Shown here: positions 6,083 to 16,991 of the stretch, in pieces | Position numbering within the stretch: position 1 is the stretch's first letter | Layout: every line of letters starts with the position of its first letter | IMG/VR virus record: IMGVR_UViG_3300008448_012911 | Span: 1-21,161 of that record | Strand: one strand, 5' to 3' | Source of the DNA: a virus | DNA length: 21,161 nucleotides | Made by a program: the position numbers and the translations under genes | The notes under the pieces: model-generated | What the model saw: only the letters and a program-made list of their open reading frames with translations | Told to the model about the DNA's origin: nothing | Databases searched by the model: none

Positions 6083-8128
6083 ATGTCCGATTTTTTCTCA
6101 TTCAGACTTCCAGTAGATTTTGTTGAAAAATACACTACTGTAGAAGCACCATTTGGTTTCAGAGACGCAGGTGAAAACTCCATTGGAGAAATTACTTTTG
6201 CTAGAACCTACTCTCGTGTCAAAGAAGATGGAACCAAAGAACGCTGGTATGAAGTCTGTAAGAGGGTTATTGAAGGCATGTACTCTGTGCAGAAGAATCA
6301 CGCAAAAGATAATCGCCTACCATGGAATGACTACAAGGCACAGAAGTCTGCACAAGAAGCTTTTGACCGCATGTTTAACTTAAAGTGGACACCACCAGGA
6401 CGTGGTATGTGGACCTTTGGAACCCCACTAACAATGGAGAAGCGTAACTCTGCAGCACTACAGAACTGTGCTGTTGTATCTACAAAAGACCTAGATAAGA
6501 ATGATCCAGGAGCTTTGTTTGCTTGGGTGATGGATGCATTGATGCTTGGTATTGGTGTTGGCTTTGATACCCTTGGACAAGACAAGGCGTTGCCAATTTA
6601 TGAACCAATTGAGCCAAAGGTAGTTTATGAAATTCCAGACACTCGTGAAGGTTGGGTAGAAGCCACAAGACTGCTTCTTAATTCATTCTTGAGACCAAAT
6701 CAAAACAGACAAGAACTTGACTACTCTTTAATCAGACCATTGGGTGCACCAATCAAGGGCTTTGGAGGAACTGCTTCTGGTCCTGGTCCACTAATCACTT
6801 TGCACGAACAGATTAGCAAAGTTATTGGGGGTAGGGTTGGAGAAACTCTAGACTCAAGAGCTATCGTAGATATCATTAATCTAATTGGAACCTGTGTTGT
6901 ATCTGGAAACGTACGTCGTTCTGCTACCCTAGCTTTGGGTGTAGAGGGTGACGATGATTTCTTAAACCTAAAGAATGCAGAAGTTTTCCCAGAGCGTAAT
7001 AGCTATGACCCAGCAGCTCCAGGATGGGCATGGATGAGCAATAACTCTATCTCTGCTACCGTTGGTATGGATTACTCAAAGTACGTAGATCGTATTGCTG
7101 ATAATGGAGAGCCAGGATTTATTTGGCTAGACGTTGCTCGTAACTATGGTCGTTTAGCAGACCAGCCAGATGGTGCAGACTATCGTGTAGTAGGCTTTAA
7201 TCCGTGTGCAGAACAGCCACTAGAGTCCTACGAGCTTTGTACCCTAGTTGAGGTACACCTAAACCGTCATGAGTCCAAGGAAGACTTCCTACGCACTCTA
7301 AAGTTTGCCTATCTATATGGAAAGACTGTAACACTTCTTCCAACTCACTGGCAGCAGACCAACGGTATCATGCAGCGTAACCGTCGTATTGGAACATCGC
7401 TAACTGGAATTGCTTCCTTTGCTGATGAGCATGGTTTGCCAACAGTTCGTGGCTGGATGGACGAAGGATACAACAAGATTCGTTTCTATGATAAGAAGTA
7501 TTCTGAATGGCTATGTGTTCGTGAATCAATTCGTGTAACCACTGTAAAGCCATCTGGGTCAGTATCTCTACTATCAGGTGCAACACCTGGAGTTCACTGG
7601 GGACCAGGTGGAGCATTCTACCTACGTGCTATCCGTTTTGGAAACACAGATCCAATGCTACACCTATTCAAGGCAGCTGGATACAAGTGTGAGGATGACT
7701 TAGTGTCATCAAATACAACAGTGGTATACTTCCCAATTAAGTCTGGTCAGAAGCGTAGCGAGAAGCAGGTGTCTTTGTTTGAGAAGATGTCTCTTGCTGC
7801 AACAGCTCAAGAGTACTGGTCAGATAATGGTGTATCAGTAACGCTATCCTTTGACAAGGAAACAGAGAAGCAGCACGTAGCATCTGTTCTTAACATGTAT
7901 GAAGGTAAGCTAAAAGCTGTATCCTTCTTGCCAATGGGAAACACTGTATACCCTCAGCAACCATACACAGAGATTACAGAAGAAGAGTATGACTACTACA
8001 TTGGTCGTATTGCAAAGATTGACTTCTCTGCTATTTATGACGGGGTAGATAATCTAGAAGCACTTGGAGAATCATACTGTACAACAGACTACTGCGAAAT
8101 TAAGATTCCAGACAAGAGAGCTAAGTAA
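6083..8128 (+). CDS. nrdJ: class II (B12-dependent) ribonucleoside-triphosphate reductase
   Basis: This enzyme makes deoxyribonucleotides from ribonucleoside triphosphates using adenosylcobalamin and a thiyl radical. It follows the monomeric Lactobacillus leichmannii RTPR plan (about 740 aa there, 681 here). Cys129 in LQNCAVVS pairs with Cys386 as the substrate-reducing thiols. NPCAEQPLE carries the radical Cys375 and Glu377, and Cys375 to Cys386 are 11 residues apart as in RTPR. The C-terminal CTTDYC (Cys666, Cys671) is the swinging redox pair. I chose ATG 6083, with AAGGAAGGTGG at 6064-6074; the in-frame GTG at 6071 lies inside that ribosome site. Thioredoxin overlaps its stop (TAATG). Being class II, it needs no oxygen and no small subunit but does need host cobalamin. 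Confidence 0.93.
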   Translation: MSDFFSFRLPVDFVEKYTTVEAPFGFRDAGENSIGEITFARTYSRVKEDGTKERWYEVCKRVIEGMYSVQKNHAKDNRLPWNDYKAQKSAQEAFDRMFNLKWTPPGRGMWTFGTPLTMEKRNSAALQNCAVVSTKDLDKNDPGALFAWVMDALMLGIGVGFDTLGQDKALPIYEPIEPKVVYEIPDTREGWVEATRLLLNSFLRPNQNRQELDYSLIRPLGAPIKGFGGTASGPGPLITLHEQISKVIGGRVGETLDSRAIVDIINLIGTCVVSGNVRRSATLALGVEGDDDFLNLKNAEVFPERNSYDPAAPGWAWMSNNSISATVGMDYSKYVDRIADNGEPGFIWLDVARNYGRLADQPDGADYRVVGFNPCAEQPLESYELCTLVEVHLNRHESKEDFLRTLKFAYLYGKTVTLLPTHWQQTNGIMQRNRRIGTSLTGIASFADEHGLPTVRGWMDEGYNKIRFYDKKYSEWLCVRESIRVTTVKPSGSVSLLSGATPGVHWGPGGAFYLRAIRFGNTDPMLHLFKAAGYKCEDDLVSSNTTVVYFPIKSGQKRSEKQVSLFEKMSLAATAQEYWSDNGVSVTLSFDKETEKQHVASVLNMYEGKLKAVSFLPMGNTVYPQQPYTEITEEEYDYYIGRIAKIDFSAIYDGVDNLEALGESYCTTDYCEIKIPDKRAK

Positions 8129-8379
8129 TGAAACAGTTGCTACACTTTACTGCAACTTGGTGTCAACCATGCAAACAGATGGAACCACTAATCGCAAAAC
8201 TTGTTTCAGAAAACTTAGACATTGATTATGACAAGATTGATGTGAGTGATGAGTTTGATCCAGCAGTTGAGTATGGCGTTAAAGGTGTTCCTACTTTTAT
8301 TGCACTTAAAGATGGAAAAGAAGTTGCAAGACACACTGGTATTGCAACCGAAGAAAAGTTGTTGAATCTTTTTAATTAA
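8128..8379 (+). CDS. thioredoxin-like protein (WCQPC)
   Basis: An 83-aa minimal thioredoxin fold protein. The active site is WCQPC (Trp11, Cys12, Cys15) and the cis-proline is Pro55 in GVPTF. It lacks the N-terminal strand and helix of the 105-aa bacterial protein, as many phage thioredoxins and glutaredoxin-size versions do. The QP dipeptide in place of GP should shift redox potential relative to host thioredoxin. It overlaps the reductase stop codon, so it is very probably its dedicated reductant, recycling the C-terminal CTTDYC disulfide. Start ATG 8128 is fixed by the overlap. An extended -10 promoter follows the stop by eight bases. Confidence 0.9.
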   Translation: MKQLLHFTATWCQPCKQMEPLIAKLVSENLDIDYDKIDVSDEFDPAVEYGVKGVPTFIALKDGKEVARHTGIATEEKLLNLFN

Positions 8380-8433: not shown

Positions 8434-9804
8434 ATTAAAAAGTTTTTATATTCAGCAATAGTTTTAGCAATAGTTTCTATATCATTTTTTTGGCCAGTTG
8501 CTGCTAAAGCATCTACAACTGCAGTTTGTGATACCTACCAAGTTAATGGTGGTGATCAAGCATTCTTAATGAACTTAAATACCCCACTAGAATTTGGTGG
8601 CACTGTATATAATGGTAACATTTATGTAAGTCCAAAAGGCACAATGACCTTTGGTCAAGGAGACTATACTTTCTGGGACTACCCAGCTACCCCATCCATA
8701 TCAATTGGCTCATGGGACTATCATGCATTTCCAAATACATTTACATCTGGTGGATGGAATCCAGGTTGGGGTATTGGAAAAGATTTGTATGTTAGATATG
8801 GATCAACCGCAACATCTATTTGCGTTGACTGGAAAGTAATGGTTTGGGGTCAGTCTTCTGGAGAGCCAGTCTATATTAGAATGTTAGCACAGGTAGATCC
8901 AGTAAATTATACTTGGACCCCCACTTATCAAGTAAGTTCTAATGCACCAGCAGGAGCTAGGTATGGTGTTCGTTATGTTCAAAATGGTCCAGTGCTACCA
9001 TTGACAATTCAAACAATTACTGAGCCACCTGCTCCAAATCCTACACCAGAACCAACACCTGAACCTACCCCAGAGCCAAGTCCTGAGCCTACCCCTGAAC
9101 CTAGTCCAGAACCAACACCTGAACCTAGTCCAGAACCAACGCCAGAGCCTACTCCAACCCCTGTTGTGCCAGTTGAACCTGTCGTGCCACCAACCAACCC
9201 AGTAGACCCAGAACCACAACCTTCTCAGGATCCTGAGCCAATAGTCCCGCCAGCAACACAGCCAGAGGAACCAGAACAAGCAATCCTGCCAACTGAAGAA
9301 CCTGAAGAACCAATAGAGCCTTCACCTGAACCAACCTCTCCTATTATAGAACCAGAAGAAGAGTTTATCACATCTGCAGAAGAATTACAAGAGGACATAT
9401 CTGCAGAAGAATTAATGCAGGTAGAGCTTGATCAGATTGTGGCTACAGATCTTTCAGAAGCTCAGGTAGAAGCACTTATTGAAGCAGCCTTGGAAGTATT
9501 TGAAACAGCAGAACCTGGTTCTGAAGAATACGAGCAAGCTCTTGAAGCTCTCTTTGTAGCAGCTCAAGCAGATGACATTGTTCTTGATGAAGCTCTAGCA
9601 GCCATTCCACTTCTTGGAGATGTTCTTGGAGGTGCTACAGAACTTGTCAACTTCCTTGGAAATGCTGGGGCAGACATGAGTCCACAGACCAGAGAAGAGT
9701 CAGAAAAAGTAGTCGTTACAGCAATTGTTGCAGTGCAAGCAGCACTATCAGCAGTTTCTATAAGCGGTATAGCAACAACAGTCAACATAAGAAATGGAGC
9801 ATAA
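8434..9804 (+). CDS. Sec-exported Pro/Glu-rich surface protein, ATT start
   Basis: The first ATG (8569) would leave a mature-looking fragment, but the frame is open back to a stop at 8416. Reading from ATT at 8434, eight bases after AAGGAG (8420-8425), yields a textbook signal peptide: Lys2-Lys3, a hydrophobic core, then AAKA before Ser27. No ATG, GTG or TTG lies in that upstream stretch, so ATT is the likely start (456 aa). Residues about 45-195 look beta-rich (FGGTVYNGNIYVSPKGTMTFG), reminiscent of surface adhesion domains. Residues 196-305 are an EPTPEPSP linker and acidic run. Residues 306-456 are helical, ending with a hydrophobic stretch (about 425-447) that may anchor the protein. Two small membrane proteins follow directly. 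Likely a secreted or virion surface protein; function unknown. Confidence 0.85.
   Translation: MKKFLYSAIVLAIVSISFFWPVAAKASTTAVCDTYQVNGGDQAFLMNLNTPLEFGGTVYNGNIYVSPKGTMTFGQGDYTFWDYPATPSISIGSWDYHAFPNTFTSGGWNPGWGIGKDLYVRYGSTATSICVDWKVMVWGQSSGEPVYIRMLAQVDPVNYTWTPTYQVSSNAPAGARYGVRYVQNGPVLPLTIQTITEPPAPNPTPEPTPEPTPEPSPEPTPEPSPEPTPEPSPEPTPEPTPTPVVPVEPVVPPTNPVDPEPQPSQDPEPIVPPATQPEEPEQAILPTEEPEEPIEPSPEPTSPIIEPEEEFITSAEELQEDISAEELMQVELDQIVATDLSEAQVEALIEAALEVFETAEPGSEEYEQALEALFVAAQADDIVLDEALAAIPLLGDVLGGATELVNFLGNAGADMSPQTREESEKVVVTAIVAVQAALSAVSISGIATTVNIRNGA
9041..9155 (+). repeat. 24-base imperfect tandem repeat coding EPTPEPSP
   Basis: Within the exported protein gene, units of 24 bases (eight codons) repeat, with near-identical copies around 9101-9124 and 9125-9148. 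They encode the Pro-Glu-Thr/Ser spacer. Such runs slip easily during replication, so copy number may vary among relatives. Confidence 0.8.
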
Positions 9805-9990: not shown

Positions 9991-10004
9991 TCATGGGAGG
10001 TAAA

Positions 10005-10271
10005 ATGAAAAAGCAAGCAGTAACAGGTGGTCTTGACACCATCATAAATATCTTTTGGAGAATTCTAGCAGTATTTGCGGCATCAGGACTAACCGTCTTG
10101 GGTGCTGGAGCAGTCGTTGGGGTTGAACTATGGGATGCTGTATTTATGGCAGGTATCCTAGGTGTAGCCACAGTAGTTGAAAAACTAGCCAGATCTTTCC
10201 TAGAAGATGGAAAGCTTACTCTAGCAGAAATTGACGAAGCCTTTGCTAAGGTAGACAAAAACTCTAAGTAA
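10005..10271 (+). CDS. holin-like membrane protein, 88 aa
   Basis: Two membrane segments (about residues 13-38 and 44-60) are followed by a soluble tail, EDGKLTLAEIDEAF, that resembles half of an EF-hand and is common in actinophage holins. It probably forms or modulates the lysis pore in the cytoplasmic membrane. ATG 10005 is preferred because GGGAGG (9995-10000) precedes it; the in-frame ATG at 9993 overlaps that ribosome site. It lies 14 bases after the previous membrane protein gene. The promoter and hairpin at 10279-10329 begin a few bases after its stop. Confidence 0.7.
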   Translation: MKKQAVTGGLDTIINIFWRILAVFAASGLTVLGAGAVVGVELWDAVFMAGILGVATVVEKLARSFLEDGKLTLAEIDEAFAKVDKNSK

Positions 10272-10278
10272 GCAATAG

Positions 10279-10307
10279 TTGACAGCCCCTCCTAGATGGT
10301 GTATAAT
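10279..10307 (+). promoter_or_regulatory. promoter P4, perfect TTGACA-17-TATAAT
   Basis: TTGACA (10279-10284) and TATAAT (10302-10307) are both full consensus with an ideal 17-base spacer. The predicted start is near 10314. The -10 box lies in the loop of the hairpin at 10286-10329, so the promoter's own transcript lacks the left arm. Confidence 0.85.
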
Positions 10308-10329
10308 GATTACATACATTTAGGAGGGG
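10286..10329 (+). terminator. hairpin enclosing P4 -10; terminator and RBS-masking element
   Basis: CCCCTCCTA (10286-10294) pairs perfectly with TAGGAGGGG (10321-10329) across 26 bases, followed by TTTTCTT. In read-through RNA this is a GC-rich stem plus U-run, which could terminate, and it also buries the AGGAGGGG ribosome site of the gene at 10337. RNA begun at P4 keeps only the right arm, leaving the ribosome site free. Confidence 0.7.
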
Positions 10330-10336
10330 TTTTCTT

Positions 10337-10708
10337 ATGGCGTCAGCCAAACCAGTAAAATATCCAAAAATGCCTACAGAAGTTCAAATTGGAACACAGC
10401 TTTGGGCGATTGAGGAACGTAATCGTAATAGGGATTCAGCATTGAGTGATGATTCTTATGGATATACCTTGCACAGAGATTCGCTAATTGTGATAGATTC
10501 TTTAGCTACACCAAGCAGAAAAAGACAAACACTTTTGCATGAGCTAATGCATGCTGTTAGGCATAGTCTTGGAAGCCCAATTACTCCTAAAAATGATGAT
10601 GACTCAGATACCTGGGAGCATTTCTTTATTGGTATGTACGAAGAAGGTTTGCTACTTATCATTCGTGAAAATCCACACGTACTAGACTATCTACTTAGCG
10701 ACGAATAG
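10337..10708 (+). CDS. HExxH zinc metallopeptidase, ImmA/IrrE-like
   Basis: A 123-aa putative zinc protease. The catalytic helix LLHELMHAVRH carries His68-Glu69-x2-His72, and Glu94 in DTWEHF is a plausible third ligand. The compact size, strands before the helix and the helical end (EEGLLLIIRENP) fit small phage or ImmA/IrrE-like peptidases, which often cleave repressors or act as toxin-antitoxin partners; the DNA-binding partner is not adjacent. ATG 10337 follows AGGAGGGG (10322-10329) by seven bases, one of the strongest ribosome sites here. Its own consensus promoter suggests high expression. It has no signal peptide, so it is cytoplasmic. The substrate is unknown. Confidence 0.8.
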   Translation: MASAKPVKYPKMPTEVQIGTQLWAIEERNRNRDSALSDDSYGYTLHRDSLIVIDSLATPSRKRQTLLHELMHAVRHSLGSPITPKNDDDSDTWEHFFIGMYEEGLLLIIRENPHVLDYLLSDE

Positions 10709-10711
10709 TTC

Positions 10712-10740
10712 TTGACATTTTAAGTCAGATGGAGTAAAAT
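10712..10740 (+). promoter_or_regulatory. promoter P5, TTGACA-17-TAAAAT, leaderless arrangement
   Basis: TTGACA (10712-10717), a 17-base spacer and TAAAAT (10735-10740) end six bases before ATG 10747. Transcription should start at or next to the A of the ATG, leaving no 5' leader. Confidence 0.75.
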
Positions 10741-10746
10741 AAAGGT

Positions 10747-10992
10747 ATGAATAAAAAAACTTTTGATGAATGGCTACAAGAAGGTTTAGACCTTAACTTT
10801 TGTGGACCAGCAGTTTGCTATCCACATGATGGTCTACCACTAACTGAGCAAGAAGATGAGCAGTTTGGTGAAGGACAAGATCCTTGCATACATATCATAA
10901 GACTTTATGAAGATGTAGAAACAAAAAAAGCAGTAGAAGCAAATCATTCTCCGTCTGTATGGAGAGCAACCAATTCTGGTTTCAAACTATAA
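10747..10992 (+). CDS. hypothetical Cys-containing acidic protein, 81 aa
   Basis: I recognise no named family, although the pattern of a Trp-Leu-containing helix, then FCGPAVCYPHDG, then DPCIHIIRLY recalls small conserved proteins of actinophages. Three cysteines (Cys19, Cys24, Cys47) and His27 could bind a metal. It is acidic overall, with no signal peptide or membrane segment. The ATG at 10747 lies six bases after a -10 box and lacks a correctly spaced Shine-Dalgarno (GGAG is 12 bases away, AAAGG only one), consistent with a leaderless mRNA. The subtilase gene follows after 19 bases, with its own ribosome site, and may share the transcript. Confidence 0.7.
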   Translation: MNKKTFDEWLQEGLDLNFCGPAVCYPHDGLPLTEQEDEQFGEGQDPCIHIIRLYEDVETKKAVEANHSPSVWRATNSGFKL

Positions 10993-16592: not shown

Positions 16593-16991
16593 ATGTTAAA
16601 TTATTTTATAGTGTTTTTTGCAGGGGTATTGACAACACTATCCATAATTGCTATAATTGTAAAGTATAATAAGCTAAGTCATGCCAAGATTAAGCCTATA
16701 AGACAAAGCATCATATTCTGGGAATTAAAGCAATTTATGCCAGACATAATGTATGATTTTTTAAATAGGCCTACGCAAGCACAAAGCTACGATAGCAACA
16801 GAAGCTTTAAGTTTATTGAGATGCCAGACAACAAGGCATATTGGTTAGACAGAAACAAGATTTATTATGCAGACATTAAAGATGATGGAAGATTTAATCC
16901 AGGAGAGGGAAAACTTTCTGAGATGAAAAATCTATCTGAAAAACAATTGGTAAAAATGTTGTTTATTTACAACAGTTTAAAGAACGGCTAG
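16593..16991 (+). CDS. single-pass membrane protein, 132 aa
   Basis: The N-terminal membrane segment (about residues 3-23: YFIVFFAGVLTTLSIIAI) is followed by a basic patch (YNKLSHAKIKPIR) and a soluble C-terminal domain that is not recognised. With N-in topology the soluble domain would lie outside, but the positive patch right after the segment favours the cytoplasm (N-out, C-in). ATG 16593 follows GGGAAAA (16583-). A consensus promoter pattern (16629-16657) lies inside the membrane-segment codons; it may be incidental. Function unknown. Confidence 0.75.
   Translation: MLNYFIVFFAGVLTTLSIIAIIVKYNKLSHAKIKPIRQSIIFWELKQFMPDIMYDFLNRPTQAQSYDSNRSFKFIEMPDNKAYWLDRNKIYYADIKDDGRFNPGEGKLSEMKNLSEKQLVKMLFIYNSLKNG
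16629..16657 (+). promoter_or_regulatory. internal consensus promoter-like sequence
   Basis: TTGACA (16629-16634), 17 bases, and TATAAT (16652-16657) preceded by TGC give a full sigma-70 match with extended -10 inside the membrane-protein gene. It could drive the downstream genes 16996-18838, or it may be an accident of Leu-Thr-Thr and Ala-Ile-Ile codons. Confidence 0.45.

Follow-up and report, generated by a model that had tools for sequence, protein, structure and literature searches.

A single 58-base stretch of a phage genome combines a strong promoter, a hairpin and a ribosome-binding site, and it is quite probably a compact insulator that heads an exchangeable cassette of one or two genes. 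The stretch lies in IMG/VR virus record IMGVR_UViG_3300008448_012911, of which we analyzed positions 1 to 21,161 (21,161 nt, a fragment of a phage record, hereafter the window). The reading that best explains its features is that the element would block translation, and partly transcription, of RNA that reads through from the genes upstream.

Anatomy of the Element

All parts of the element are on the plus strand and several of them share bases. The promoter matches the consensus at 12 of 12 positions, with the -35 hexamer TTGACA (10279-10284), which is kept in nearly all relatives, separated by a 17-nt spacer from the -10 hexamer TATAAT (10302-10307). Within this spacer lies the left hairpin arm, GCCCCTCCTAGATG (10285-10298), an anti-Shine-Dalgarno sequence. 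The right arm, CATTTAGGAGGGGT (10317-10330), contains the Shine-Dalgarno AGGAGG (10322-10327), nine bases from the ATG at 10337, and the T-rich run TTTTCTT (10330-10336) serves as both a putative terminator U-tract and the spacer between Shine-Dalgarno and start codon.

The core of the repeat, CCCCTCCTA (10286-10294) and TAGGAGGGG (10321-10329), is a perfect 9-bp complement enclosing the -10 box, just as a preliminary description of this DNA had stated, and the hairpin itself is longer than was claimed there. By folding, 10285-10298 forms 14 contiguous pairs with 10317-10330, two of them G-U, and five further inner pairs (10299-10303 with 10311-10315), similar to the inner pairing of many relatives, close on a 7-nt loop (10304-10310), making about 19 pairs in all; the -10 box at the hairpin tip is therefore shared between the loop and the inner stem. 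The minimum free energy of the element is -28.2 kcal/mol, compared with -10.9 in shuffled sequences (z = -6.0; 0 of 200 as good). Judging from the position of the -10 box, transcription should start near A10314 (10312-10315), downstream of the entire left arm: the box ends at 10307, the left arm at 10298 and the left side of the inner stem at 10303, so that RNA from this promoter is expected to miss the 5' arm.

The 9-bp repeat alone is unremarkable and within chance; perfect 9-bp inverted repeats with a loop of up to 45 occur three times in the window and one to six times per block shuffle. The ensemble exceeds chance, because the repeat coincides with a consensus promoter, a ribosome site, a T-run and a start codon, and above all because relatives conserve it and its arms covary among them. 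Two 12/12 consensus promoters occur in the first 20 kb of the window, the nested one and one at 16629-16657; the latter, also a perfect TTGACA-17-TATAAT, sits inside the reading frame 16593-16991.

Gene Neighborhood and Exchangeable Cargo

The large terminase encoded in the window is 54% related to those of Streptomyces phages such as Yaboi and Coruscant, and the window also encodes a class II ribonucleotide reductase and a WhiB gene; together these suggest that the host is probably an actinobacterium of low GC content. Upstream of the element is a gene for a small membrane protein (9993-10271, plus strand; PHROG 26427), holin-like by inspection, which stops 7 bases before the -35 hexamer. The cargo gene (10337-10708, plus strand) encodes a 123-aa M78/IrrE-like metallopeptidase with an HELMH motif (PF06114, E 3e-7); a search of annotated phages for homologues found none. 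The downstream flank of the slot is a small gene (10747-10992, plus strand) that is kept when the cargo is swapped. It is preceded, right behind the M78 gene, by its own near-consensus promoter, TTGACA-17-TAAAAT (10712-10740), where folding gives no hairpin of the element's kind. Farther upstream, a 411-aa protein (8569-9804) has a long PEPTPEPSPEP repeat region, and a PHROG search with it found no relative.

The slot has three alternative contents, an M78 peptidase, an HslV-like hydrolase (PHROG 1040), or a methyltransferase-like protein, so assigned by a weak Pfam match, together with the HslV, and the cargo is swapped while the flanking genes stay constant on both sides. Phage morons are single genes with their own promoter (and terminator) that have entered an operon and are exchanged between related phages. 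The cargo likewise is replaced between conserved neighbors and has its own promoter; the element differs from the usual moron signals by fusing promoter, possible terminator and ribosome site into one 58-base piece in front of the gene. Similarity among elements follows the class of the cargo (Mantel r = 0.54, p = 0.0002), with little dependence on the upstream gene (r = 0.17), and elements differ even where 96% identical upstream proteins precede different cargo; the element thus travels with its cargo.

Where HslV is first in the slot, the element is present in 14 of 14 cases. In two contigs (L181 and L595) the methyltransferase-like gene is first, the element stands ahead of it, and the HslV-like gene comes second, forming a two-gene cassette behind one element. 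The second-position HslV has AAGAGGAGAACTATG, with its ribosome site unpaired, outside any predicted hairpin (two contigs; sequence inspected in one). HslV in first versus second position is a natural control for the predicted hairpin.

Conservation and Covariation in Relatives

A protein search returned six M78 homologues, and the same element precedes all six. With a pattern scan and a search for the upstream gene, the set grew to 24 distinct versions of the element on more than 30 contigs, the family members found here all being metagenomic phages. The small membrane-protein gene directly precedes the element in every version that has upstream sequence. The sole annotated phage with the upstream gene, the metagenome-assembled Actinomycetia phage DSL-LC01, has an overlapping gene there and lacks the element. 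In M78 homologues the element is kept down to 50-57% amino acid identity, and in the two longest records covered, matches to the element model amount to one copy per genome. All versions have the ribosome site inside the right arm and the ATG at a nearly fixed distance; where the stem is extended (GTCCCC/GGGGAC, then TTTC), the T-rich run moves along with it.

The pairing that had been proposed from the window alone is borne out among the relatives; a stem without covariation, which the preliminary description would have counted as a refutation, is not what they display. When the 24 sequences are aligned by fitting to the model, standard pairs fill 94.4% of stem cells and 12 stem cells are changed on both sides; the covariation score, 0.365, is reached by none of 500 shuffles and by slid controls is at most 0.19. 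An anchor-based count, which uses no fitted alignment, agrees, with different pair types at the same level (e.g., UA/CG, CG/UA/UG and UA/AU/GU). Right arms swapped between versions pair more weakly, and in 0 of 20,000 permutations was pairing as good as with a version's own arms, although kinship among the sequences inflates the permutation significance of both the covariation and the arm-exchange tests. In two contigs (L006 and L232) both arms are one base shorter together; in L006, the shortened CCCCTCTA pairs with TAGAGGGG. Relatedness alone would not account for such co-shortening or for compensatory changes in separate lineages. G-U pairs make up about a quarter of the kept stem cells, and this abundance points to pairing of RNA rather than to a DNA palindrome.

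Predicted RNA Behavior and a Model for Insulation

We propose that RNA polymerase arriving from the upstream genes, a read-through into the slot that we assume from gene order, would copy both arms, and that the resulting RNA would fold into the hairpin of about 19 pairs and hide the ribosome site. RNA from the nested sigma-70-type promoter would begin near 10314, past the left arm, so it could not form this hairpin and AGGAGG would be open. The cargo would thus follow the timing and strength of its own promoter and ignore read-through; we predict that it is translated only from that promoter. With a promoter of host-type consensus, expression of the cargo would be expected early or at all times, and not from RNA reading through from upstream. 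In the version found in the window, the U-run after the hairpin should also halt part of the transcription.

Folding predictions agree with this model. We took accessibility as the mean unpaired probability of the eight bases ending at the last G of the right arm, and modeled promoter RNA as starting 7 bases after the -10 box. Across 21 versions, mean predicted accessibility rises from 0.01 for read-through RNA to 0.47 for promoter RNA; for the Shine-Dalgarno of the window's element the values are 0.00 and 0.50. As the preliminary description had supposed, the ribosome site is predicted to be buried in a stable stem of the long transcript, in 21 of 21 versions, and to be released from it when the left arm is missing, when it would be about half open. 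The same description regarded the stem and U-run as a terminator, a role that the scores favor in some versions only. Scored by the d'Aubenton-Carafa formula, the window's element reaches +12.3 with its short U-run, TTTTCTT, and scores are positive in 10 of 13 M78 versions, 2 of 6 HslV versions and neither of the two methyltransferase versions, falling below zero in 9 of the 21. Termination is therefore probable at the element in the window and uncertain in the other versions. Since all versions are predicted to bury the ribosome site while terminator scores are uneven, hiding this site is the feature common to all.

On balance, if with some reserve, we lean toward a broader reading: the element may be a portable insulator whose bases serve at once as promoter spacer, hairpin arm, ribosome site, start-codon spacing and possible terminator. 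It would be carried with exchangeable cargo entering operons off their schedule, and its design may have arisen independently in several unrelated phage groups.

Occurrence in Other Phages

Across the fetched phage DNA (4.4 Mb), a promoter is nested in a repeat of 8 bp or longer whose right arm carries a ribosome site in 14 unique versions, and the mirror arrangement occurs in none. Because promoter or ribosome-site patterns had served to fetch most of these loci, sites containing a Shine-Dalgarno are favored, and the contrast of 14 versus 0 is indicative only. In the same DNA, promoter spacers ahead of nearby ribosome sites show no enrichment of CTCC (18 of 79 vs. 328 of 1969, p = 0.17); the design is thus limited to particular lineages. 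Sets of promoters with ribosome sites chosen regardless of their arms have a modest excess of pairing between spacer and ribosome site, which is partly operator-like.

Several examples are unrelated to the family of the window. On the minus strand of a 66% GC phage contig (L526:982-1039), a nested promoter lies in a repeat whose right arm contains the ribosome site and which no U-run follows; it has 15 strict pairs and folds into a 20-pair helix. Another phage contig, L371, has an element of 14 pairs, also lacking a U-run, and a weaker second copy 1.1 kb away (7011-7068 and 8126-8185); the two differ in their arms and precede two genes, and in both the promoter spacer includes an anti-Shine-Dalgarno and the right arm the ribosome site; L291 contains a relative of the second copy. 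L234 has 12 pairs, likewise without a U-run. In a common prophage family (L114, L119, L136 and more), CTCCTTTCGTGTATAATG and then CTAAGGAGGTGATAA..ATG precede a 56-aa gene; the promoter spacer of this family contains an anti-Shine-Dalgarno of 6-7 bases, and the fetched loci include more than 100 copies. When host genomes were scanned with a DNA pattern, none of 24 checked loci fit the element model, the matches being mostly cyanobacterial repeats. Matches to CCCCTN{1,4}RGRTRGTGTATAMT (L398-L477) are a repeat of filamentous cyanobacteria (Planktothrix, Okeania) and apparently unrelated.

Alternative Explanations

The element could instead be mainly an intrinsic terminator of the upstream operon with an overlapping promoter, the burial of the ribosome site being a by-product of how close the gene stands. 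The T-rich run does adjoin the stem and shift with its extension, scores are positive in the window and in most M78 versions, and a plus-strand scan from 2244 to the element finds no other terminator-like site. Yet most HslV and both methyltransferase versions keep the stem despite a negative score, the unrelated phages L526, L371 and L234 have the nested arrangement without a U-run, and the right arm always holds the ribosome site, all of which makes this reading unlikely. Less probable still is a DNA operator, in which a repressor dimer bound to both arms would shut the nested promoter and the repeat would act as DNA. Inverted repeats around a -10 box are the usual geometry of operators, some of the strong unrelated matches among the promoter and ribosome-site sets resemble operators, and protein binding was favored for the ESAS repeats of cluster K phages (PMC3203893). 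Against this, the G-U pairs in about a quarter of kept stem cells would be mismatches in DNA, and arm sequence drifts with compensation, without the symmetry expected at the DNA level. An operator would also have to accommodate a ribosome site and T-run fixed in position and on one side only, the absence of the mirror arrangement from the 4.4 Mb, and the single copy in each of the two longest records.

That nothing but chance or shared descent is at work, with a promoter beside a G-rich ribosome site and an accidentally C-rich spacer, is very improbable indeed. A 9-bp repeat alone is expected in a window of this size and CTCC is not generally enriched in spacers, but the arms covary and shorten together, the covariation test already contradicts this reading, and the element is retained in homologues as distant as those of 50-57% identity.

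Comparison with Known Systems

The translational logic that we propose for the insulator is that of T4 e, soc and I-TevI and of IS200, and the principle is already known; novelty lies in the promoter being of host type, in the added U-run and in the attachment to exchangeable cargo. If the model is true, a phage operon could take in a foreign gene that keeps another schedule, with no need of a distinct terminator, promoter and leader, and the element would offer a very short natural template for shielding genes from read-through. It would extend the early/late hairpin logic of T4 to uncultured actinobacterial phages with a host-type promoter. The three-cargo slot and the second-position HslV without a hairpin are natural experiments, and the claim is testable in any sigma-70 host. 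Among mobile elements, IS10 is protected from outside promoters; a literature search on its fold-back found no direct paper.

In T4, the genes e (lysozyme), soc, 49 and I-TevI have their ribosome site concealed in long RNAs, and promoters inside the hairpin element, where studied, make translatable RNA (PMC3014915, PMC2988022). The likeness is that a nested promoter yields RNA without the 5' arm and with a free ribosome site. The T4 promoters, however, are phage late promoters (TATAAATA, gp55-dependent), whereas that of the element is a perfect sigma-70-type TTGACA-17-TATAAT; hence the element works like the T4 set but is not a member of it. T4 silences early read-through, and the schedule expected for the element would be the reverse. 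Relative to the T4 hairpins, the element adds a U-run with possible termination, and the T4 genes are fixed while its cargo is swapped.

IS200 tnpA has a terminator stem-loop plus a stem-loop over the ribosome site (PMC3196728, PMC12594629), shielding a mobile gene from impinging transcription by a terminator hairpin and a hidden ribosome site; the element would resemble it, with a possible terminator. IS200 is a transposon with two separate stem-loops; in the element, one hairpin enclosing the promoter would do both, for phage cargo. Cluster K mycobacteriophages have multi-copy inverted repeats, ESAS, upstream of the start-associated sequence (SAS), and their authors saw little support for RNA pairing (PMC3203893). 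The likeness, a superficial one, is in an inverted repeat just upstream of a G-rich sequence at the start of actinophage genes. The SAS is a 13-bp sequence, GGGATAGGAGCCC, in many copies, whereas the element has a different sequence and, in the records covered, one copy per genome, and hence does not belong to this class; unlike ESAS, its arms covary as RNA and its right arm is the ribosome site.
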